A DNA stretch of 64,000 bases from Solibacillus sp. FSL R7-0682 (GTDB lineage Bacteria; Bacillota; Bacilli; Bacillales_A; Planococcaceae): assembly GCF_038005985.1 (NCBI RefSeq), contig NZ_JBBOUI010000001.1:1074001-1138000 (forward strand). The letters run 5' to 3'. This document shows positions 45,887-64,000 of the stretch, piece by piece (the stretch's first letter is position 1; each line of letters begins with the position of its first letter). A program made the translations under genes and the position numbers. Below the pieces are notes generated by a model. It was not told the DNA's origin, ran no database searches, and saw only the letters and a list, made by a program, of their open reading frames with translations.

Positions 45887-45904
45887 GGTTGAAGAATAAA
45901 TACT

Positions 45905-46156
45905 AAATGCTTTGACCGGGAAGAGTAATTATGTGAAATTTGTTTTAGGGAATGTAAGCCACTGACTGTAAGCTTACTAACAAATTGCATAGTGAAGTTC
46001 ACCCCGCGAGCAGCGTCCGGGAGCCAATTTGGTGAAAGGATAGCCGGCTAGAGATAGTCGTTAGCTCAAATGAAGTGATTGCTTATTACAAGCAATAACT
46101 AGGGTGGTACCGCGAAACTCGTCCTCGTCCCTTTTTTAGGGGACGAGGTTTTTTTA
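45905..46156 (+). ncRNA. T-box riboswitch (phenylalanine) upstream of pheST
   Basis: The T-box AGGGTGGTACCGCG is at 46101-46114, just before the terminator hairpin (cctcgtccc / ggggacgagg, seven T, 46123-46156). A UUC codon at 45998-46000 (after GTGAAG) sits where the specifier is expected, which fits phenylalanine and the downstream pheS. Confidence 0.93.
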
Positions 46157-46190: not shown

Positions 46191-47228
46191 ATGGAACAAC
46201 AATTAAAGCAATTGGAACAAGAAGCTTTAGCGAAAATTGCCGAAGCAACAGATTTGAAAGCATTAAACGAAGTTCGGGTTGCGTACTTAGGTAAAAAAGG
46301 ACCAATCACAGACCTTTTAAAGGGAATGGGTAAGCTTTCTGCTGAAGATCGTCCAAAGATGGGTGCACTTGTTAACACAGTGCGTGAAAACGTGACAGCT
46401 GAGCTAGAAAAGAAAGTAGCGGTATTAGAAGAGGCTGCCATTCAAGAGCAGTTAGAAAATGAATCAATTGACGTAACGTTACCAGGTGCACAAGTGCGTG
46501 TAGGAAATCGTCACCCACTTACTCGTGTTATTGAAGAAATAGAAGACCTATTTTTAGGGATGGGTTACGAAATCGTAGAAGGTCCAGAGGTAGAGAAGGA
46601 TTACTATAATTTCGAAGCGATGAACTTACCAAAAGGTCACCCAGCACGTGATATGCAAGATTCATTCTACATTTCAGAAGAAACGTTATTACGTACGCAT
46701 ACTTCCCCAGTGCAAGCACGTACGATGGAAGCGAAAAAAGGAGAACCAATTCGAGTTATTTGTCCAGGTAAAGTATTCCGTCGGGATACGGATGATGCAA
46801 CACACTCTCATCAATTCATGCAAATTGAAGGACTTGTCATTGGTGAAAACATTCGTATGTCTGATTTAAAAGGTACATTAGATGCATTAGCAAAGAAAAT
46901 GTTCGGTGCAGAGCGTGAAATTCGCTTACGTCCATCTTTCTTCCCATTTACAGAGCCATCTGTAGAGGTAGACGTTTCATGTCATAAATGCGGCGGTAAA
47001 GGCTGTAATGTATGTAAATCGACTGGATGGATTGAAATTTTAGGTGCGGGTATGGTACATCCAAACGTACTTGAAATGGCAGGCTATGACTCAACACAAC
47101 TTTCAGGCTTCGCATTCGGTATCGGTGCAGAGCGTATCGCAATGTTAAAATACGGTGTGGATGATATTCGTCATTTCTATACAAATGACACACGCTTCTT
47201 ATCACAATTCCACCAGGCAGAAGTGTAA
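46191..47228 (+). CDS. pheS: Phenylalanyl-tRNA synthetase alpha subunit
   Basis: A 345-residue class II catalytic subunit: N-terminal coiled coil, motif 2 region with [12 protein letters not shown] and [19 protein letters not shown], and motif 3 [16 protein letters not shown]. It has a cysteine cluster ([17 protein letters not shown]) seen in Gram-positive PheS. AGGAGG precedes the ATG. It is T-box controlled and 14 bases upstream of pheT. Confidence 0.97.
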
Positions 47229-53855: not shown

Positions 53856-54662
53856 TTATTTCGTTTTCCGTCCAATATAAAGTAAGTGAGAAGACATTCC
53901 TAATAAATATGGATCCGCAGCTTTCTTAATAATTAAATCAAGAACTTTTTGTTCTTCGCCTTTTAATTTCCAATAATTCCAGCTTTCCTTAGTCATACTT
54001 GTAGCAATATTGGAGCCAATTAATTGGATACATTGAAAACCTTGCGATTCCATTAAAGGTTGAATTTCGTCAATGTCAAAATAATAGGCGCCTGTAAATC
54101 GATTTACTTCTGAATGATTAAAGCAACCAGATTTGGAAAACTGCTCAATTTCTATCATGCTATCATTCGGTCTCCAGTTTTCTGGATTTATTAAGGAATT
54201 AAAAATATGCTTCGTCCTTGGCATAAACGCAACAAAAACAATGCCATCTTTTTTCGTAACTCGATTTAATTCCTTTAATGCTATTATACGGTCTACTTCT
54301 TGTTGAAGGTGATACATTGGGCCAAGCATGAGCGTTGCATCAAATTGTTCATCTTCAATTTGTTCAAGTTTTCTTGCATCTGCGACTATAAATTCGCTAA
54401 ATTGATTTTCTAACTTTAGCTCAATTGCTTTTGCCTCGGCAACTTCAACTAATTTAGGTGTTAAATCAGTCAAAGTAACACGGAAGCCTTCTTTAGCTAG
54501 AGCCATTGAATATTTACCAGGACCAGCACCATTGTCTAAAATTCTTCCTTTAACAGGTAAGTATTTTTTAATGTAGTGCCAATTCACATGAAATTCGAGT
54601 GGTTCTCTGTCCAATCTACCCCATTCATCAAATTGCTCGTAGTAATCAATAATTTCCTTCAT
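53856..54662 (-). CDS. Class I SAM-dependent methyltransferase under T-box control
   Basis: A 268-residue methyltransferase with the SAM-binding motif I GRILDNGAGPGKYSMALAKEG (about 37-57), the acidic end of strand 2 in VTLTDLTPKLVEVAE, ATLMLGPMYHL and DGIVFVAFMPR. The N-terminal segment YYEQFDEWGRLDREPLEFHV is conserved in small-molecule methyltransferases of this kind. The substrate is unknown. A T-box leader with terminator lies directly upstream, so expression should answer to an uncharged tRNA. Confidence 0.88.
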   Translation of the reverse strand: MKEIIDYYEQFDEWGRLDREPLEFHVNWHYIKKYLPVKGRILDNGAGPGKYSMALAKEGFRVTLTDLTPKLVEVAEAKAIELKLENQFSEFIVADARKLEQIEDEQFDATLMLGPMYHLQQEVDRIIALKELNRVTKKDGIVFVAFMPRTKHIFNSLINPENWRPNDSMIEIEQFSKSGCFNHSEVNRFTGAYYFDIDEIQPLMESQGFQCIQLIGSNIATSMTKESWNYWKLKGEEQKVLDLIIKKAADPYLLGMSSHLLYIGRKTK

Positions 54663-54667
54663 AAGCT

Positions 54668-54914
54668 CCCTCCTTAAAATAAAAAAACTCCATCTCTAAA
54701 AAGAGACGAAGTTTGATTCGCGTTACCACTCTAATTGGTTAAGAACAATATTAACCCACTTACACTATAACGGTAGCTGCCGTTCATGCTTACTTTTCAT
54801 TCGGCATAAATACTCCTGGACGAGTTCAGAGGTTTATTGACTGTTTTTCACCATTCAACAGCTCTCTTAACAATTAAATGCTCTTACTACTTCCAATCAT
54901 CGTATTTTATTATT
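54668..54914 (-). ncRNA. T-box riboswitch upstream of the methyltransferase
   Basis: On the minus strand the T-box core AGTGGTAACGCG (54730-54719) is followed by a terminator (aaacttcgtctct / agagatggagttt, seven T, about 54715-54680). A distal stem with GGTG (ctgttgaatggtgaaaaacag) and AGAGAG/CTCT pairing fit stem I. After CTCT the sequence GAACTCG suggests a specifier of CUC (Leu) or UCG (Ser); I cannot decide. The region fills the 315-base gap before the next gene. Confidence 0.8.
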
Positions 54915-55532: not shown

Positions 55533-55847
55533 TGAACAAATCCTCCAAACTTCTTCTTCTTACAGCTAAACTTTTAATCTATTCGCGAATAATGTTTACA
55601 TTAACAAATAGTTGGTACTGTTAAAAGTGCCAAAATATTATAAAACATAGAGGTCAGTCTTGAAATTTAAAAAATACAAACAATTGCCTTGCATAAATAG
55701 TTGGAAAGATAATTGATTTTTTTTACAATTGGGCATTCTATATCGCCATTTTCCTAGCACGGTCATATCGTATGAAGAACCATTTTGTATGTAAATCTGC
55801 ATTTATTATGAAGACCATAAATGGCGACAGAAGGAAGGAGAAGCATT
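55533..55847. other. Divergent intergenic region with operator-like dyads
   Basis: No gene is seen. On the minus strand a TATAAT (55642-55637) is followed by TTGGCAC-N8-GTACCAA (55633-55612), which covers the predicted start. A perfect 12-bp palindrome TATTCGCGAATA lies at 55580-55591. On the plus strand CATATCGTA (55764-55772) matches the sigma-K -10 CATANNNTA upstream of the coat-protein gene. Confidence 0.5.
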
Positions 55848-56276
55848 GTGAAGTATGAAAATCAGAAGCAACGCGCCTTATGTGATGCACTTGAAGATTT
55901 AAAACGATTGCAGGACTTACTCACGAATTCATGGTCAAAATATTATGGTCATTTATTTACGAAAATAGTTGGAAGCGATACAATACCATTTTTTCTACTA
56001 ACAACTGAAAGTAGTATGATGCGCATTTATGATTCAAAAATGAAATTAGAAACGTGCTATTTTAGAATTGAAGCAGTTGAAAAGTCGAAACAACAAATAA
56101 CATTGTCTTTATTACGTGCCATTGACTCCGAAGAAAATGAAACGAATGTCATTAAGGACATCGTACGTTTAGAAAAGACAGATTCACAGGTGACAATTAA
56201 TTTGCGCTCAATTTTAGCAGTACAGCTTTTAGAGCCGGCATTATTAAGTAGAGATTTATATGTAGAAAAATGGTGA
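55848..56276 (+). CDS. CotY/CotZ-like spore coat protein, cysteine-poor
   Basis: A 142-residue protein. The order DTIPFFLLTTES, CYFRIEAVEKSK, ITLSLLRAIDSEE, then DIVRLEKTDSQVTINLRSIL and LLEPAL follows the CotY/CotZ/ExsY family of spore coat crust and exosporium proteins. Those are rich in cysteine and build disulphide-linked lattices; here only two cysteines remain. GTG 55848 has AAGGAGAAG upstream and gives a family-like start; a longer frame from 55821 lacks a site. It heads the ATP-grasp/Mur-ligase cluster. The match is from memory of the family pattern. Confidence 0.65.
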   Translation: MKYENQKQRALCDALEDLKRLQDLLTNSWSKYYGHLFTKIVGSDTIPFFLLTTESSMMRIYDSKMKLETCYFRIEAVEKSKQQITLSLLRAIDSEENETNVIKDIVRLEKTDSQVTINLRSILAVQLLEPALLSRDLYVEKW

Positions 56277-56303
56277 TGGTACGTAAAAAAGGGAGTGTAT
56301 AAA

Positions 56304-58475
56304 ATGACAACGATTGGCATGTTGCATCATCGGAAAGATCCCGAAACCGTGCTTAAATCGTATGCATTTGCAGCAGTAGCAAAGGCAGAGGGTGTAACAT
56401 TTTTTTATTTTTCTCCAAGAACCGTTAACTTTACTACAAGAAAAATTCAAGGAAAAGTATTAGAAGATGGCGTCTGGCAAGACAGGACAATGCCTTTTCC
56501 CGATGTAATTTATAATGCGGGAAGTCCAGAGAAATTAGCTGTCTCAAGAAATATTATTCAAAAATTAAAAAAAGAAATTCCGTTTACAACTCATTCAATT
56601 GGAAATAAGTGGAACATTACGAAACGGTTACTCGAGGCAAAGGAATTTGCTACCTATTTAATACCGACGGAAACAATAAAAAATATAGAACAATTTTATA
56701 AAAATATTCAAGCTTATAAAAAGGTCGTATTTAAACCGATTGAAGGTCGTAAAGGAAAGGGCATTTATTTTATTTCTAGATTAGTAAATGGGTACGAGGT
56801 GCAAAAAGATACAGTAAAAGAACGTTTCTCTAAGGAGCAATTAGATAAGTTTTTAGAAGAGCAATTGGCGGAAGAATCATTTATTTTGCAGCCATACATC
56901 CAGTCGACGATGAAATCAGGGCAAGTGTTTGATTTCAGGGTTCATGTACAAAAAAACGGGGAGGGTAAATGGGTCATTACAACCGTATATCCACGGGTTG
57001 CACCGATTGGCTCGATCGTTCCAAATATAAACAATGGGGGCTTTACGAATTATTTAGATCCCTTTTTACAATTAGAATTTAAAGAACAGGCTTTTAACAT
57101 TAAACGTATGCTTGAGCATTTTGGTCTGTCATTAGCGCGGCACCTAGATGACATTCAAATGGTAAAATTCGGAGAAGTTATCGATGAAATCGGTATTGAT
57201 GTAGGCTTAGATGAAAATCATAAACTATGGATTTATGAGGTCAACTGGCGACCAGGGTGCCCACCAGCCTTTTATTTAGAATTAGATGTAGTTAGGCATA
57301 CAATCCAATATGCCAAATATCTTGCGAAACATCAGCACGAAGTTAGACAAAAAATTAGCGAAGCACAAAATGAAATTTCAGTTGTAGAGAAGAAAGAGAC
57401 ACCGATTATCGCCATTACAGGGAGTGCAGGGAAAACGACAACGAAAGCATTTGTCGCATCGATTTTATCGAAGAAATGGAAGGTATTTGAGTCGAAAGAT
57501 TACTGGAATACGACTGAGCATACGAAAAAGCATAAGGAGCTCATTGACGATTCCCATGAAGCTGTCGTACTAGAATACGGTATGGCATATCCAGGCGTTA
57601 TTACAAGTCATTGTAGTATTATTCAACCTAATATAAGTATTGTCACAAATATTGGATTAGCTCATGTCGGCAATTTTGATGGAGATATTAAAGGAGTAGC
57701 TAAGGCGAAGTCAGAGCTTATACAAGGTATGGATCAAAACGGTTTACTTATTTTGAATAAAGATGACGACAATTCCAAGCATTTGTTAACCGAGCAATTT
57801 AAAGGGGAAATAAAAACAATCGGTATTCAACAAAAGGCGGATTATATGGCATATGACGTGGAGTATAAAGAGGATGGCATGGCGTTTAAAGTAAAACTTG
57901 GTGGTCAAGAGTTGCCAGTGTTTATTCCGATACTAGGAGAACATCATGTATATAACGCTTTAAACGCGATTGCTTTAGCAGATTTGTTAGGCTTTTCCCC
58001 AATGGATATTAAAGCTGGGCTAGTATTTAAAAAACCGCCAAGAAGACTTACACTTTATCATTGTCGGGACCAAATTACATTAATTGATGATACAGTACAC
58101 TCACATCCACAAGGAGCAAGAGCAGCACTTGATGTACTATGTGCCATAAGTAAAAGGCGAAAAATTGCAATCATCGGGCAAATGCGGGAATTAGGTGATT
58201 TACGTGAAGAAGAATATCGTAAGTTAGGTGCCTATATTAGTGAGAAAAATATTGATCAATTAATTACGTACGGTTTCCGAACAGAGGAAATTGGGCAAGC
58301 GGCGCAAGAAAATGGAATGCCTGCCTCGCGCATCCACCATTTTATTAATAAAGATAAGTTACATGAACTGCTCAAAAAATTGGTGAGGAGAGGCGACACG
58401 ATTTTAGTGAAAGGCGCGAGTAAAACGAATATGTTTGAAACAATTCAATATTTAGATCAACAATTTAAAGCATAA
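56304..58475 (+). CDS. ATP-grasp (YheC/D type) fused to a Mur-ligase domain
   Basis: A 723-residue fusion. Residues 1 to about 355 are a YheC/YheD-type ATP-grasp ligase: KPIEGRKGKGI (144-154), FILQPYI, FDFRVHVQ and metal site EVNWRP (Glu312, Asn314). Residues about 366-723 are a Mur-ligase core with P-loop ITGSAGKTTTK (from Gly373), IVTNIGLAHVGNF, GEHHVYNALNA, DDTVHSHPQGARAAL. The Mur part lacks its own UDP-binding N-terminal domain. ATP-grasp followed by Mur ligase is the order of cyanophycin synthetase. ATG 56304 has GGGAG upstream. It should form amide bonds in two ATP-dependent steps. Confidence 0.85.
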   Translation: MTTIGMLHHRKDPETVLKSYAFAAVAKAEGVTFFYFSPRTVNFTTRKIQGKVLEDGVWQDRTMPFPDVIYNAGSPEKLAVSRNIIQKLKKEIPFTTHSIGNKWNITKRLLEAKEFATYLIPTETIKNIEQFYKNIQAYKKVVFKPIEGRKGKGIYFISRLVNGYEVQKDTVKERFSKEQLDKFLEEQLAEESFILQPYIQSTMKSGQVFDFRVHVQKNGEGKWVITTVYPRVAPIGSIVPNINNGGFTNYLDPFLQLEFKEQAFNIKRMLEHFGLSLARHLDDIQMVKFGEVIDEIGIDVGLDENHKLWIYEVNWRPGCPPAFYLELDVVRHTIQYAKYLAKHQHEVRQKISEAQNEISVVEKKETPIIAITGSAGKTTTKAFVASILSKKWKVFESKDYWNTTEHTKKHKELIDDSHEAVVLEYGMAYPGVITSHCSIIQPNISIVTNIGLAHVGNFDGDIKGVAKAKSELIQGMDQNGLLILNKDDDNSKHLLTEQFKGEIKTIGIQQKADYMAYDVEYKEDGMAFKVKLGGQELPVFIPILGEHHVYNALNAIALADLLGFSPMDIKAGLVFKKPPRRLTLYHCRDQITLIDDTVHSHPQGARAALDVLCAISKRRKIAIIGQMRELGDLREEEYRKLGAYISEKNIDQLITYGFRTEEIGQAAQENGMPASRIHHFINKDKLHELLKKLVRRGDTILVKGASKTNMFETIQYLDQQFKA

Positions 58476-58480
58476 GAAAA

Positions 58481-58526
58481 GGGCTGTTTCGAATGTGTCT
58501 AATACATTGGAGACAGCCTCTTTATT
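58481..58526. terminator. Bidirectional terminator between the fusion gene and the convergent ATP-grasp gene
   Basis: ggctgtttc / gagacagcc with an inner aatgtg / tacatt stem; T-rich on the plus side and A-rich before it. Confidence 0.85.
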
Positions 58527-58529
58527 TGT

Positions 58530-59735
58530 TTATGGTTCTCGCATATGAAATTTAATTAAGCGTGACGCTTGATTCGCTAGTCTTACCGCCTCACTAATTG
58601 ATTTTCCTTGTGCGATTATATAGGCATATCGGTGTCCCATTGATAAAGGCGGAATAAGTAATGTACCTTTTTTAGGTTTAATATACACATCATATACACC
58701 TGGGGATTTTGTTGCACGTAGTTTGCCTGTCACTCGTTCTAAAATACCTTTACGTTTGACGATTAAATACTTTGTATAGACAAAATAGTGCTGGGTAGGC
58801 TGTAAATCGGGCTCTTCCCCAAGGAAAAGCTTTAACGTTTGTTCAACTAGATTAATTCCATAAGCAGCTTCAATCATCTTATTCATCGCTCCACCTGAAA
58901 TGCGGGGATTAACTTCAACGAGCTTCCATCCTTTACTTGTTAAACGCAGTTCTAAGTGAAACGCACCCGTCTCAATGTTAAAAGTATTTACAATTGATTC
59001 GCATAATGCATCTAGACTAGTTACAAGATTAGGAGGTACGGTTGCAAGTAGCCTATAGCCTGTAATAATAAATCGTTTTCCTTTTGTAATGTCTTGTTTC
59101 ATGACCGCGACGATATGTGGCTGATGTTTATACACAATAACCTCAACTAAATATTGTGGCCCCCTTAAATATTCCTCTGCGATGATCGTTTCTTCAGGAT
59201 ATTTTTTTTGAAGTGAAGTAAGATGTTTGTTAAACTGCTTTAAATCTTGGGCTAGTAAAACATCTTTGGAGCCCGTGGATTTAGGAGACTTTAGAATTAA
59301 TGGAAAGGTAAGTTTACCTGAAACTTTTTCATTTGGTCCAATCACTTTAAACTGTGGAGAATAAGCTTCCTTCATTAAAAATTTTCGTGTTTCTTCTTTA
59401 TCTTCCATCATTTCAATAGCTTTTGAAGATGTGAGATTTATGCAAAATTCGTCACAAAGTAGGGAGGCTATATGGACATAGGGGTCGACAAAACTGACAA
59501 TTGTTTTAAAATCAAGTCCAGTCTTTTGAAGTTTCGTAATTTCTGTTCGCATTGCCTCCATATTGGTTGTATCGACAAAAACCATTTTGTGAATTTCAGG
59601 ATATAGTTCCCTCTGTTCATATTGTCTGTCATTGCTTGTAAAGAGAACTATAAAATAACCTAATTTTTCAGCAACTCGTGTTGCTTCTCTACTTGATCCA
59701 GATTTATTGACACCGATAAAAAGGATTGATTTCAA
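58530..59735 (-). CDS. ATP-grasp ligase (L-amino-acid-ligase type)
   Basis: A 401-residue ATP-grasp protein: N-terminal Rossmann-like domain (SILFIGVNKSGSSREATRVAEKLGYF), ATP-binding part (FPLILKSPKSTGSKDVLLA; IIAEEYLRGPQYLVEVIV) and metal site VEVNPRISGGAMNKMIEAAYG, then a C-terminal domain as in L-amino-acid ligases and carboxylase-like enzymes. It is a different ATP-grasp branch from the YheC/D neighbours. The start is TTG 59735 with GGAGGTG seven bases upstream; the ATG at 59750 lies across that site. Transcribed opposite to the rest of the cluster. Confidence 0.85.
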   Translation of the reverse strand: MKSILFIGVNKSGSSREATRVAEKLGYFIVLFTSNDRQYEQRELYPEIHKMVFVDTTNMEAMRTEITKLQKTGLDFKTIVSFVDPYVHIASLLCDEFCINLTSSKAIEMMEDKEETRKFLMKEAYSPQFKVIGPNEKVSGKLTFPLILKSPKSTGSKDVLLAQDLKQFNKHLTSLQKKYPEETIIAEEYLRGPQYLVEVIVYKHQPHIVAVMKQDITKGKRFIITGYRLLATVPPNLVTSLDALCESIVNTFNIETGAFHLELRLTSKGWKLVEVNPRISGGAMNKMIEAAYGINLVEQTLKLFLGEEPDLQPTQHYFVYTKYLIVKRKGILERVTGKLRATKSPGVYDVYIKPKKGTLLIPPLSMGHRYAYIIAQGKSISEAVRLANQASRLIKFHMREP

Positions 59736-59854
59736 TTTCTTCACCTCCATTTTTCAAATGGATATACCTCCTCTTAAATGTATGGCAAGAAATAGATTTT
59801 GTATGGTTATCCATCATGTGTAATTCAAATATCTAAGTAGCATTTTTTTTCGAA

Positions 59855-59863
59855 CATATGCTA
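59855..59863 (+). promoter_or_regulatory. Sigma-K-like -10 upstream of the Mur ligase
   Basis: CATATGCTA fits CATANNNTA, 20 bases before the ATG; the -35 (mACm) is not convincing. Confidence 0.35.
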
Positions 59864-59882
59864 TAGAAGGAAGGAGTGTGAA

Positions 59883-61283
59883 ATGAGTATGAAACCTATA
59901 TCGGCGGACAGGTTAAGCACCATTGTTTCTGGAAAAATAACACACGGACCATCAGTGAATATTCATTATGGTGCGTACCGTCTAAAGCAAGTAAAGCATA
60001 AAAATACAGTTCTATTTATTGAAAAACGCATTTTGAGTTGGGACGAATTAAAACCTTTTTTTCCACTTGTACTTGTAACAGAATGGAAATATAGCGCTCA
60101 TGAGCTTCCAAGTCAGGTGACAGTTATTGAAGTGGAGGAGTCAGAAGAGGCTTTTTGGAAATTTACCTATTTCTATCGTAATCAGTTTCAACTTCCCGTC
60201 GTTGCGATTACAGGTACCGCTGGAAAAACGACGACGAAGGAAATGACAAAGCATATTTTATCTTCATATATGAAAGTGACTGCTACACAGCTTAGTACAA
60301 ATTCAAGGACAGCATATTTTCAATATTTATTAAACATTGAAGAAGATACCGAGGTTGCAGTTATTGAAACTGCAGTAGGTGCGCCAGGCGATATTTTAAA
60401 TGCAGGAAGTTATTTTAAGCCTACAGTCGGCATCATTACAAATATTGGTGCACATCATTTAAATTACTGTAAAACCCTCGAAGGCTATATTGACGCAAAG
60501 AGTGAGATGTTAGAAATACTCGATGATAATGGGACTTTAATTATTAATGCGGATGATGAAAATACAAAGAAAATAAATTTCCAAAAATTTAATGGGAAAT
60601 TGATTAAAATAGGAAGAAGTTTATCGAATGATTATGCAGCAAGTAACATTCAGTACGGTGAAAACGGAATGGAGTTTTTGGTCCATTATCAAGGGCAGAA
60701 ACATCATGTAGAAGTAAGTGGATATGGGGAGCATCAAGTCTACAATGCCTTAGCAGCAATAGCAGCATCAGTAGAAGTTGGATTGTCAATTTCACAAGCA
60801 ATTGCCCCATTGCGAACGTATCGGCCATTAAATAAGCAACTACAATTGTTTAAAGGCTTGAACGGGGCATTAATTATAGACGATACTTGGAGCATTACGA
60901 CTACTTCATTAGAAGCGGGTTTAAAGGTATTAAATGAGTTAGCGGGTCGAAGGAAAAGGGTTGCCATCATAGGTACGATTACAGATATCGGCTCGTGGGG
61001 GGTCTTTATTCATCAACAGGCTGGCGAAATTATATTTAACGAAGGAGTAGATATACTAATTACAGTTGGAGAACATGCAAGAATAATGGGGGATTATGCA
61101 TTAAAATTAGGCATAAAAGCAGATGTTTATAGCTTTAACAATGGAATTTTAGCTTATTACTTGTTGAAGGATTTAGTCGATCAGAACTCAGTTATTTTAA
61201 TAAAAGGAGATATGTATAGTAAAACGATGTTTGAATTAGCGAGTAATTTAAAAAATAAAGAATGGAATCCTCCTCATTTTTAA
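59883..61283 (+). CDS. Stand-alone Mur-ligase family protein (copy 1)
   Basis: A 466-residue Mur ligase. A degenerate N-terminal domain of about 90 residues (no STDSR-type motif) is followed by P-loop ITGTAGKTTTKE (from Gly111), IITNIGAHHLNY, INADDENTKKI, GEHQVYNALAA and the C-terminal domain (RRKRVAIIGTITDIGSWG). True MurE/MurF bind UDP-MurNAc peptides; the weak N-terminal domain suggests another acceptor. GGAGTG precedes the ATG. It is clearly paralogous to the gene entering at 63246. Confidence 0.85.
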   Translation: MSMKPISADRLSTIVSGKITHGPSVNIHYGAYRLKQVKHKNTVLFIEKRILSWDELKPFFPLVLVTEWKYSAHELPSQVTVIEVEESEEAFWKFTYFYRNQFQLPVVAITGTAGKTTTKEMTKHILSSYMKVTATQLSTNSRTAYFQYLLNIEEDTEVAVIETAVGAPGDILNAGSYFKPTVGIITNIGAHHLNYCKTLEGYIDAKSEMLEILDDNGTLIINADDENTKKINFQKFNGKLIKIGRSLSNDYAASNIQYGENGMEFLVHYQGQKHHVEVSGYGEHQVYNALAAIAASVEVGLSISQAIAPLRTYRPLNKQLQLFKGLNGALIIDDTWSITTTSLEAGLKVLNELAGRRKRVAIIGTITDIGSWGVFIHQQAGEIIFNEGVDILITVGEHARIMGDYALKLGIKADVYSFNNGILAYYLLKDLVDQNSVILIKGDMYSKTMFELASNLKNKEWNPPHF

Positions 61284-61297
61284 GGAGGATTTTTTTG
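61266..61297 (+). terminator. Terminator overlapping the end of the Mur ligase
   Basis: aatcctcct / aggaggatt, a perfect 9-bp stem with seven T residues; the stem includes the last codons and stop. Confidence 0.88.
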
Positions 61298-61363
61298 TTG
61301 GATTATTTTAAATTGTGACAAACAGCTTATAGGCTATAAAACACTTAATGGCAAATACACAAG

Positions 61364-61392
61364 CACATCGAACTTTAGAGGAATATAGTGTA
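61364..61392 (+). promoter_or_regulatory. Sigma-K-like promoter of the small beta-rich protein
   Basis: CACA (61364-61367), 16 bases, TATAGTGTA (61384-61392) compared with the sigma-K consensus mACm-N16-CATANNNTA; one -10 mismatch. Confidence 0.4.
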
Positions 61393-61420
61393 CTAATTTA
61401 CAGATAGGGAGGAGAGTAAA

Positions 61421-61858
61421 ATGGGAGGGATATGTCCGTGTGGTGTGAAAGTAGACGGCACTTCATTTTATCGAAAAGTTGGCTTTAATCAGGTACCTTA
61501 TACGGTTATTGGAGATTTAACCTATAAAGCAGAAGTCTGTATTTCCAATCTTGCTAATTCAACATTAACCTTACGATTTGATGAAACAGGTATAGCAAAT
61601 AAGTACAGTTTTCTTTTCACTGCGAATGCCATCAAGGATGTTATTTGTAGAGTAAGAGACAACACCTGTATCGTAACGGTGACTGGTACAGGAACAATTG
61701 AGTCGGAACAATATCCGTTCACTGCAGAATTTGTGGATAAATTAGAAAATACTACTAGTGATTTTGTTGAAAGCTTTGTAATTGAGGGGTTTTTCAACCA
61801 ATTAGGAATTGTACCAATTTCAGAAGGGGCCGTTGTATCTTTAGGCTGTCAAAATTAA
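61421..61858 (+). CDS. Small all-beta protein, possibly spore-appendage (Ena/DUF3992)-like
   Basis: A 145-residue protein without a signal peptide. It has an N-terminal CPC motif (GGICPCGVKVDG), a C-terminal Cys (SLGCQN) and alternating beta-strand segments (VCISNLANSTLTLRFDETG; NTCIVTVTGTGTIE). Disordered Cys-bearing N-terminus plus a jelly-roll-like core recalls S-ENA/DUF3992 spore-appendage subunits, but the similarity is only by pattern. GGGAGGAGAG precedes the ATG. It sits inside the ATP-grasp/Mur cluster. Confidence 0.6.
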   Translation: MGGICPCGVKVDGTSFYRKVGFNQVPYTVIGDLTYKAEVCISNLANSTLTLRFDETGIANKYSFLFTANAIKDVICRVRDNTCIVTVTGTGTIESEQYPFTAEFVDKLENTTSDFVESFVIEGFFNQLGIVPISEGAVVSLGCQN

Positions 61859-61924
61859 GAAATATCGTGTAGAAGATTTTCAGACGATAAAGGAACTCGA
61901 TTTAAGGGAATGGGAGGAGGAGAA

Positions 61925-63202
61925 ATGCAAGCAATCAGAGGAAGGGTAGGACAATACAAAATACTTGCACAGCATGATTCATTACGACCATATCTAGCTC
62001 CGCAAATTAATTATTCGAAAGATACGCTATTTGAAATGTTAGAGAGGTATGACTGCTTATATCTAAAACCGATTGTTGGAATGGATATTATTACAATTAA
62101 TAAAATACAAGAAGTGTTTCATATAACGACAACTATACATTCTTTTGAAGCAACCGAACGAGAAACGGTTTATGAGCTAATACAAAAGGAAGTCAATAAT
62201 AGAAGGTATCTTATACAGCCTCAAATAAATGAAAAATTTATTCCTATAAGAAATTACCGACGATTTATTACCGTTCAAAAAAGAGGTTTAAATTGGCGTG
62301 TTACGGCTTCAACAAAACAATCAAATCATTTTCAAGAATATATTATTTATTCTTCGCAACGGGCTAGTATACAAAAAATTGCTTTATTGGCGGCAGAACA
62401 ATTAGGTAAATATTACTCGGAATGCGAGGCAATTGTTGTAGAAGTCTCATTCAATAGGATGGGTACTTTTTATATTACAGATTCATTTTTACACTTTTCA
62501 GTAAGTAAATGGAATCAATACCAATCCCTAGAATACCTAATGCCGAAAACGGATTTATTAACAGCAGCGACATTTCAATCCTTTTTACAAACATATCCCC
62601 TTATATTTTTAAAACCATGTAATGGTCAACAAGGTAAGGGCATTATTAAAGTTCAAAATGTTAATAGCATATGTTACGAAATTCATATGGGCAGACAAAA
62701 ATGGGTTATACAAGGTATTCAACCAGTGTATGAGCATATTCGTGAACTAGCACCAATCGAAGATAATTACATTATTCAACAAGGGATAGAATTAGCAACA
62801 ATTAAAAACTACTTTACTGATATACGTGTTATGACTAATAAGGATCAAAGCGATTGGCAAGTTACAGGGAAGGCTGTCAAAGTAGCAGGACCACATTTCT
62901 TTGTTACAAATGCAGCTCAAGCGGTTTTACCTTTAGAGTTGGCATTAAAGCATTCCTCAATACAACCTATCCATCATCCGAGCCTTGAAAAGAAAATTGA
63001 TAAGGCTTGTTTAATGGCGGCAAATTTACTTGATCAACCTGCTGAACGCACGATAATTGGATTCGATGTGGGCGTTACAGATTATGGACAGATATGGATT
63101 ATTGAAGGAAATTATGTGCCAGATATGTCATTAATTTACAGATTTAATGATCCATTGCAGTACGAGAATATTTTAAAGATTAATGTTAATCATTCAACCT
63201 AG
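61925..63202 (+). CDS. Tandem YheC/D ATP-grasp protein, first half degenerate
   Basis: A 425-residue protein with two YheC/D-type units. Unit 1 (about 1-205) has LRPYLAPQINYS and LKP at 47-49 but has lost the glycine loop (KPIVGMDIITI) and the metal site (ITDSF at 184-188). Unit 2 (about 206-425) is intact: KPCNGQQGKGI (230-240), YIIQQGIELA, FTDIRVM, VTGKAVKVAG, and IIEGNYVPDMS with Glu394 and Asn396. YheC/YheD are spore coat-associated ATP-grasp proteins. ATG 61925 follows GGAGGAGG. The next Mur ligase starts 43 bases downstream. Confidence 0.85.
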   Translation: MQAIRGRVGQYKILAQHDSLRPYLAPQINYSKDTLFEMLERYDCLYLKPIVGMDIITINKIQEVFHITTTIHSFEATERETVYELIQKEVNNRRYLIQPQINEKFIPIRNYRRFITVQKRGLNWRVTASTKQSNHFQEYIIYSSQRASIQKIALLAAEQLGKYYSECEAIVVEVSFNRMGTFYITDSFLHFSVSKWNQYQSLEYLMPKTDLLTAATFQSFLQTYPLIFLKPCNGQQGKGIIKVQNVNSICYEIHMGRQKWVIQGIQPVYEHIRELAPIEDNYIIQQGIELATIKNYFTDIRVMTNKDQSDWQVTGKAVKVAGPHFFVTNAAQAVLPLELALKHSSIQPIHHPSLEKKIDKACLMAANLLDQPAERTIIGFDVGVTDYGQIWIIEGNYVPDMSLIYRFNDPLQYENILKINVNHST

Positions 63203-63245
63203 TGAATTGAGAAAAATCTTCATAACCTAGTGGAAAGGGGGGGAT

Positions 63246-64000
63246 ATTATCCGAGCTATACATGTGAAAACGATTCGGCAAATACTAAAAGGGGAATTAC
63301 TTAGTGGAGCGGAAAATTGGTACGTAAAACACGTAATTTATTATAATCGTCATGATTTAGTTGCGCCGAATACGTTATTATTTGTAAGTAAGAGCGACAA
63401 AATAAATTGGAATGAGCTAAATGTGAAAGCACCTGTAGTTATAATTTCAGATAAGCAAGAAGATGAACTAAGACATGCACTCCCTCAAACAACAGTTATT
63501 CAAGTGCGGAGTGTCTTGCAGGCGTATTGGACATTTATTGAATATTATCGTAATTTATTTGATATTCCAGTTGTTGCGATTACTGGAACGTGTGGAAAGA
63601 CAACAACAAAAGAAATGCTGAAACATATTTTAAGTAAAGAAATGCCAGTGCAAACGTCCTTTAGTAGCAAAAATGAACCACGCCAATCCTTACCTTATTT
63701 ACTGGGGATTAATAGTAATACGAAAGCAGCAGTATTTGAACTTGGACTAGGAAACTCAGGGAATATTAAGCATCAATGTAAGATTTATCAGCCAACAATT
63801 GGGATTATTACGAATATCGGTGTTCATCATTTAGATGGCTGTAAAGACTTAGCAGGTTATATAAAAGCAAAAGCAGAAATTTTGGAAGGGATAAGAACAG
63901 GTGGAACCCTCATTATCAATGCGGATGATGCCAATACAAAGAAAATTTCGTTAACAACTTTTCAAGGAAAGCTTGTAACATTCAGTATAAAGGATAAGGC
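63246..64000 (+). CDS. Stand-alone Mur-ligase family protein (copy 2), runs off the window; near-cognate start
   Basis: At least 251 residues, 3' end outside the window. The N-terminal domain parallels copy 1, then P-loop ITGTCGKTTTKE (from Gly114), ELGLGNSGNIK, IITNIGVHHLDGC and INADDANTKKI. The GAAAGGGGGGG site (63233-63243) is directly followed by ATT-ATC; aligning with copy 1 (GELLSG with GKITHG) puts the start exactly there. The next canonical start, GTG 63264, is about 20 bases from the site and would drop six residues. I use ATT 63246; ATC 63249 is equally possible. Confidence 0.8.
   Translation, partial: MIRAIHVKTIRQILKGELLSGAENWYVKHVIYYNRHDLVAPNTLLFVSKSDKINWNELNVKAPVVIISDKQEDELRHALPQTTVIQVRSVLQAYWTFIEYYRNLFDIPVVAITGTCGKTTTKEMLKHILSKEMPVQTSFSSKNEPRQSLPYLLGINSNTKAAVFELGLGNSGNIKHQCKIYQPTIGIITNIGVHHLDGCKDLAGYIKAKAEILEGIRTGGTLIINADDANTKKISLTTFQGKLVTFSIKDK

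Follow-up and report, generated by a model that had tools for sequence, protein, structure and literature searches.

A sporulation-linked ATP-grasp and Mur-ligase gene module in Solibacillus and related Bacilli, possibly producing an amide material of the spore surface

The Ddl-MurF pair sets an ATP-grasp ligase and then a MurF-type ligase in series, with the same kind of chemistry, and the YheC and YheD proteins are associated with the spore coat. Cyanophycin synthetase (CphA) is described, in the part of PMC11915815 that deals with it, as a Mur-family member made by fusion with an ATP-grasp enzyme; CphA1 carries a RimK-like ATP-grasp unit and then a Mur ligase in one chain, with likely two amide-forming sites, according to PMC9262961 and PMC11915815. 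In B. subtilis, yheC and yheD are placed in the sigE regulon and are raised by SpoIIID, as stated in PMC517825. Here we describe a gene module of Solibacillus sp. FSL R7-0682 in which YheC/D-type ATP-grasp units and Mur ligases are combined, partly in a single fused protein, beside genes related to coat proteins. The DNA analyzed, referred to as the window, is a stretch of 64,000 nucleotides (assembly GCF_038005985.1, contig NZ_JBBOUI010000001.1, positions 1,074,001 to 1,138,000, forward strand). We tentatively propose, at a little under an even chance, that the module acts in the mother cell during sporulation and would make an oligomer or polymer, joined by amide bonds without the ribosome, for the spore coat or exosporium.

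The gene content of the module, its conservation, catalytic motifs, promoter boxes and boundaries, and the descent of its Mur parts separate from MurF and CphA, are evident from sequence analysis. Seven open reading frames (ORFs), A to G, had been placed at the end of the window by an earlier note made from the sequence alone, and ORF and profile searches confirmed that placement, with the start of gene A corrected from 55,848 to 55,821. The tally given there, of three YheC/D-type ATP-grasp units, one amino-acid-ligase-type unit, three Mur-ligase domains and one small beta-rich protein, was right, with gene C lying on the opposite strand; B and F hold the only PF14398 matches of the genome at E<=0.001, three YheC/D units in all. 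As had also been anticipated, the cluster goes on past position 64,000, with the rest of G followed by genes for an NlpC/P60 protein and a collagen-like protein (Table 1).

Table 1. Features of the module, in window positions; positions past 64,000 are given as their equivalents
Feature	Position	Strand	Match or remark
CATATCGTA, sigE/sigK-type -10 box upstream of A	55,764-55,772	+	
Gene A, candidate CotY/CotZ-family coat protein, divergent	55,821-56,276	+	PF10612
Gene B, YheC/D-type ATP-grasp and MurF-type ligase fusion	56,295-58,475	+	PF14398, PF08245, PF02875
Gene C, L-amino-acid-ligase-type ATP-grasp enzyme	58,530-59,750	-	LAL_C2, ATP-grasp_4
CATACATTT, sigE/sigK-type -10 box upstream of C	59,776-59,784	-	window copy fits CATAnnnT, not CATAnnnTR
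CATATGCTA, sigE/sigK-type -10 box upstream of D	59,855-59,863	+	
Gene D, MurF-type ligase, altered N-terminal domain	59,883-61,283	+	PF08245
Terminator-like hairpin, end of D	61,264-61,293 (L014 8264-8293)	+	11-pair stem and T run
Gene E, small beta-rich protein, cysteines conserved	61,421-61,858	+	no Pfam family
Gene F, two YheC/D-type ATP-grasp units	61,910-63,202	+	PF14398
Gene G, MurF-type ligase	63,264-64,000, on to equivalent of 64,637	+	PF08245, PF02875
NlpC/P60 protein, past the window	equivalent of 64,686-66,044	-	Pfam, 159.6 bits
Collagen-like protein, past the window	equivalent of 66,315-66,773	-	no Pfam match

A neighborhood search in relatives, as the earlier note had suggested, showed that the same block of ATP-grasp, Mur-ligase and coat-protein genes recurs, with the core order A-B-C(reversed)-D-[E-F]-G-NlpC found in both Caryophanaceae and Bacillaceae. 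Thirty-six family loci (L049-L084) were picked from the 61 genomes with the fusion, all selected for B, with the contrast loci L085-L088 set apart. B, C and D were present in all 36, A in 34, G in 35 and NlpC in 34; L061, without NlpC, ends at a contig end, and L063 lacks both G and NlpC. Over both sets searched, the family loci and the named loci, B was intact in 112 of 120 loci, and C, reversed, was the next gene after B in 108 of the 111 loci with room, counting module genes only. The commonest orders were ABcDGn (31 loci) and CABcDEFGn (28 loci), where lower case marks a reversed gene, n is NlpC and the first C is a second L-amino-acid-ligase-type gene. That second gene lies upstream of A in L054-L063 and others, mostly with 36-46% identity to C. 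Among named records, B occurred in Lysinibacillus, Psychrobacillus, Sporosarcina, Solibacillus, Metasolibacillus, Neobacillus, Lederbergia, Heyndrickxia, Domibacillus, Jeotgalibacillus, Peribacillus, Calidifontibacillus and Bacillus, and the scan of the named collection also found one metagenome-assembled genome, labelled Clostridia, with the parts of B as separate ORFs. In a profile search at E<=1e-100, 9 of 348 genomes of the class, that of the window among them, had the complete fusion, while separate ATP-grasp and Mur halves occur elsewhere in the class, adjacent for example in L184. Three of the contrast loci (L085, L086 and L087) carry three or more YheC/D-type ATP-grasp genes in runs without the fusion, another organization within the same family.

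Within Solibacillus itself, the module was present in 6 of 16 genomes, including that of the window. A lack of conservation in spore formers, which the earlier note named as a refutation, is not what the distribution shows: the module is found across the family and in other genera, although in only this fraction of its own genus. All ten Solibacillus genomes without the module retain the CofE and ECF genes, and in the six of these whose loci were read, the permease gene adjoins the ECF gene in four and CofE adjoins it in two, with no A-G, NlpC or collagen-like gene between the joined flanks in any of the six. Because the flanking genes are joined where the module is absent, the module is a discrete unit with edges, spanning from about 55,821 to the equivalent of 66,773, and because its gene order is kept in other genera, chance grouping is excluded. 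The CofE-type gene near the module encodes a gamma-glutamyl ligase (L014 15555-16745, minus strand; PF01996).

The proteins themselves have kept the catalytic residues that were checked. Protein B consists of a RimK-like-fold ATP-grasp domain (approximately residues 1-345; PF14398, 211 bits) followed by a MurF-type ligase (approximately 366-726; PF08245, 124.9 bits, and PF02875, 65.6 bits) without the N-terminal UDP-binding domain, and 13 catalytic or motif positions were invariant in 94 of 94 proteins (distinct and full-length, in 90 clusters at 98%). Protein D matched PF08245 at 142 bits, and G, of 457 amino acids (aa), matched PF08245 at 133.5 and PF02875 at 54.8 bits. The features tested for the Mur-ligase superfamily, a GxxGKT P-loop and the carbamylated-lysine motif, were present in 94/94 B, 85/85 D and 80/80 G proteins, the P-loop and carbamyl lysines being invariant in D and G. 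Protein F matched PF14398 over two stretches at 183.7 bits, above the gathering score of 26.8 that B also passes; its C-terminal unit has the full motif set, with eight positions invariant in 44 of 44 sequences, and its N-terminal unit is weaker (47.6 bits as a separate match). For counting residues and promoter boxes, orthologues were selected by length and score, and row L050 of alignment A1 stands without its first residues owing to the range chosen. The conserved catalytic residues in B, D, G and F support the view of the earlier note that these are amide-forming enzymes.

Gene C carries L-amino-acid-ligase domains (LAL_C2, 68.2 bits against a cut-off of 29.4; ATP-grasp_4, 56.9 against 27), and a putative formation of dipeptides from free amino acids would fit them. 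L-amino-acid ligases usually yield free dipeptides. The best match of C to a solved structure, and its closest relative by sequence, was the L-amino acid ligase BL00235 (E 9.7e-11), which would suit a module whose product is soluble, a small peptide or metabolite stored in the spore or around it as a protectant, chelator or signal, and no surface material; with six amide-forming sites, a small peptide of defined structure could be assembled. We regard this as improbable, as A and E, both of coat type, and the collagen-like gene are parts of one module that is present or absent as a whole.

Whether the Mur ligases are peptidoglycan enzymes is best judged from their descent. All three Mur units scored highest with MurF models, and the adjoining NlpC/P60 protein has conserved catalytic residues (Cys in 88 of 89, His in 89 of 89). 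MurF-like paralogues could thus bring about a sporulation-specific change of peptidoglycan precursors for the cortex or germ cell wall, with NlpC/P60 as the matching hydrolase. This explanation is quite improbable given what the same proteins have lost: B is without the whole UDP-binding N domain, and D and G are without the DTR and GDLFV..NGH motifs of the genome's own MurF, which we take to mark the UDP-MurNAc-binding domain of MurF. In place of the NAxP motif, B, D and G each have a different conserved sequence. The cut-off of the TIGR01143 MurF model (288.6) was missed by B (257.3) and D (240.6), with G scoring 132.2 on its in-window part only. In a tree of 71 Mur rows, with about ten rows each of B, D and G, 19 canonical MurF proteins were set apart from all three by a branch with support of 100/99; D and G grouped together (100/99), and B grouped with Mur proteins of other Bacilli that lack the N domain (100/99). 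The trees and the N-domain motifs do not show B, D and G as ordinary peptidoglycan MurF, and support the claim that the Mur domains are something other than ordinary peptidoglycan ligases. Elsewhere in the genome, a ddl-murF pair (L018) and a MurC-like gene (L017) were recognized by eye. Among the N-domain-less MurF-type ligases of other Bacilli, a CapA-like gene adjoins in 8 of 15 fetched loci (L169, L170, L172, L173, L177, L179, L180 and L186), a pair separate from the module, and the three Mur proteins nearest to B in the tree (L171, L184 and L188) are not among these; in L174 and L175 the neighbor looks by eye like a D-Ala-D-Ala carboxypeptidase.

B has the layout of CphA, with ATP-grasp and Mur units in one chain and catalytic residues in both, and the likeness to cyanophycin synthetase noticed earlier held at this level, as a way of working and not as membership. 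The cyanophycin synthetase model TIGR02068 scored 66.1 bits on B against a cut-off of 850, over residues 365-657 of the Mur part only; the model passed its cut-off in 86 of 299 Bacillota genomes and had no match in the window's genome at E<=1e-150. In a second tree, with 14 CphA Mur domains taken from 89 genomes with a match and with the long-branch rows L007 and L008 of the genome's own Mur proteins dropped, CphA and two other Mur rows stood apart from B, D, G and MurF (100/100), and the 14 CphA domains formed one group (100/99) away from B. Score and tree thus exclude B as a cyanophycin synthetase. Since CphA is described in the relevant part of PMC11915815 as an ATP-grasp-fused Mur member, and the Mur part of B lies apart from it, B looks like a second, independent origin of the ATP-grasp and Mur architecture.

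The association with sporulation rested on genome content, promoters and coat-type relatives. SpoIVA was present in 61 of 61 fusion genomes vs 92 of 138 others among 199 other genomes of the family, the fusion genomes being those among the matches listed; they number at least 61, counted as open frames of about 700-790 aa with a PF14398 match, so that broken or weaker fusions may be missed. The sequence CATAnnnTR, which we take to be the -10 shape common to sigE and sigK, lay upstream of 60/62 D, 27/51 non-redundant A, 33/62 G and 30/68 C orthologues, vs 19% of 622 control genes, and in D the box fell at -45 to -25 in 56 of 62 orthologues vs 53 of 622 controls. The box-bearing stacks (56/62 D, 31/62 G and 20/68 C) share a conserved C/A-rich element about 20-24 bases 5' of the box. 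Upstream of E, a looser box, [AC]ATAnnnTA, was found in 29/37 vs 81/622 controls, and GGACAAAC, which presumably fits the SpoIIID consensus, in 19/37 vs 6/622. The window's own E has TGACAAAC in place of GGACAAAC, and the strict -10 box, looked for in that upstream region, was not found. Five motifs were tried on eight genes; the controls were ORFs of at least 150 aa from these loci, a few of which may be paralogues of module genes, and near-identical upstreams were dropped, the remaining orthologous upstreams still being kin by descent.

Genes A and E suggested a link to coat proteins. The window's copy of A scored 20.6 bits with PF10612 (CotZ), below the gathering cut-off of 24 bits, and the family matched 16 of 19 scanned A orthologues at E<=0.01 (best 5.3e-12). 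Protein E, of 145 residues, is predicted to be nearly all beta (model pLDDT 90.6), with five cysteines invariant and one nearly so among 37 sequences. Its profile reached the later part of longer ORFs (about 380-410 aa; E 8.4e-9 to 3.2e-4), and the two of these that were scanned (L213 and L216) matched NF052457, the NCBIfam model of BMQ_0737-family morphogenetic spore coat proteins, over their first part. E is therefore a candidate distant relative of BMQ_0737-family spore coat proteins, corresponding to their C-terminal part. Coat proteins of this type with an E-like later domain, some in tandem, were seen by scan in L213 and L216 and appear alike by eye in L215, L217 and L219.

The pairing of E with F bears on the main rival explanation, in which coat proteins such as E, A or the collagen-like protein receive amino acids or short peptide tags from the ligases after translation, on side chains or at their ends, as happens with RimK and tubulin-tyrosine ligases (TTL), and no free polymer is made. 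Of the 36 family loci, 19 had both E and F and 17 had neither, with no discordant case. The nearest folds of the ATP-grasp domain of B include RimK with a protein substrate, LysX/ArgX with a carrier protein and TTL, and F also matched the TTL family (E 4.4e-6). However, E ends in variable residues and so offers no obvious tag site, a tag would hardly call for three Mur enzymes, and we know of no Mur-type ligases acting on proteins. In the 80 named loci, the best 80 of 128 and partly from the same genomes as L049-L084, both genes were present in 31 and neither in 43, while 4 had F without detected E and 2 had E with no F above threshold; one of the two loci with E and without F, L157, has a frame-broken F. 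We consider coat-protein modification rather unlikely, and return to the amide oligomer or polymer as our preferred reading.

For the substrates, the product, its location and the order of steps, we infer the following scheme. C would join amino acids to a dipeptide or deliver one activated unit. In a manner like that of CphA, the RimK-like ATP-grasp part of B would extend a backbone at a carboxylate, and its Mur part would add a second amino compound to another carboxylate. D and G, both MurF-type and with substrate-side motifs unlike each other and unlike B, would add other residues; since these motifs differ among D, G and B, the product would probably be a defined mixed repeat and not a homopolymer. 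F, in the lineages with E-F, might attach either the product or an amino acid to E, the coat-type protein, A could help place the material in the coat, and NlpC/P60 could trim or remodel gamma- or iso-amide bonds. In its most specific form, which we hold to be doubtful, the proposal is that spore formers evolved, apart from the cyanophycin synthetases, a fused MurF-type and YheC/D-type ligase that, with two dedicated Mur ligases and a dipeptide ligase, lays an unseen mixed-residue isopeptide polymer in the spore coat.

Several observations weigh against a mother-cell module for a coat or exosporium amide. Enzymes with ATP-grasp folds of this kind include protein modifiers (RimK, TTL and the LysW system), and polymer formation is not implied by the fold. 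No export or polymer-length gene was identified, and none of the module loci that were searched showed a CapA-like protein. A search of the genome for PgsC found none. The claim of the earlier note that no peptidoglycan genes are near has to be corrected, as the adjoining NlpC/P60 gene is of peptidoglycan-hydrolase type. With 6 of 16 Solibacillus genomes carrying it, the module is dispensable for sporulation. Among the promoters, B, E, F and NlpC showed no enrichment of CATAnnnTR (NlpC 4/63), and a fitting -35 was rare, AC-15/17-CATAnnnTR lying upstream of 6/62 D, 12/62 G, 10/68 C and 2/51 A vs 5% of the control genes. Few genes had CATACANT upstream (4/62 D and 6/68 C; control 3%). The absence of the motif from NlpC and the few matches to a full sigma-factor consensus would be expected if the module were not sporulation-specific, with coat similarity and promoter motifs misleading. 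This is highly improbable, because the SpoIVA association, the -10 boxes at a fixed distance and the CotZ and BMQ_0737-type relatives speak together for the link to sporulation that the earlier note had claimed.

If the proposal of a coat or exosporium amide is true, the resistant outer layer of the spore would be made partly by dedicated amide ligases and not by coat proteins only, in Lysinibacillus, Sporosarcina, Psychrobacillus, Solibacillus, Neobacillus and others. YheC/D-type proteins would gain a chemical role, and the ATP-grasp and Mur architecture would have arisen at least twice. A mixed-residue coat polymer would be a second non-ribosomal amide wall material in one organism, served by precursor ligases of its own alongside the peptidoglycan ones. 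The module is genetically bounded, and its product is testable.

Other features were noted near the locus. The hairpin at the end of D is a consensus match only, with 8 such hairpins found in the region vs 7.3 expected. A strong T-box leader (54,699-54,909, minus strand; 148.9 bits) lies directly upstream of an S-adenosylmethionine (SAM)-methyltransferase-type gene (53,856-54,662, minus strand), to our knowledge an unusual kind of gene for T-box control. A second T-box leader (45,903-46,135, plus strand; 112.7 bits) precedes ORFs at 46,191 and 47,243 that look by eye like pheS and pheT.

Among known systems, YheC and YheD of B. subtilis belong to the same Pfam family as the ATP-grasp units of B and F (ATPgrasp_YheCD). 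Here, in contrast, the ATP-grasp unit is fused to a Mur ligase and clustered with an L-amino-acid-ligase gene and two further Mur genes, and we know of no Mur partner of yheC and yheD in B. subtilis. Compared with the Ddl-MurF pair, the module ligases are separate paralogues, present beside the ddl-murF genes elsewhere in the genome, that have lost the UDP-binding features. Unlike CphA1, B has no CphA N domain and stands in a sporulation-linked module with two more Mur ligases. The pseudomurein clusters of methanogens resemble the module in combining several Mur ligases with an ATP-grasp protein for a peptide-containing wall (in the part of PMC11915815 on these clusters); the module, however, is bacterial, MurF-type and spore-linked, and no MraY-like or sugar-transfer gene was recognized in it. 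PgsBCA likewise uses a Mur-type ligase for an amide polymer in Bacilli, as the section of PMC11915815 on CapB indicates, and some relatives of the Mur part of B adjoin a CapA-like gene, but the PgsB model was among the matches listed only for G, at 13 bits against 222.7. The titles and abstracts listed in our searches of the open literature gave no account of such a module. The enzyme families are known, and their fusion, clustering and sporulation context are new. By membership the module falls outside CphA, MurF (for B and D) and PgsBC, but it works like cyanophycin synthetase and the Ddl-MurF pair.

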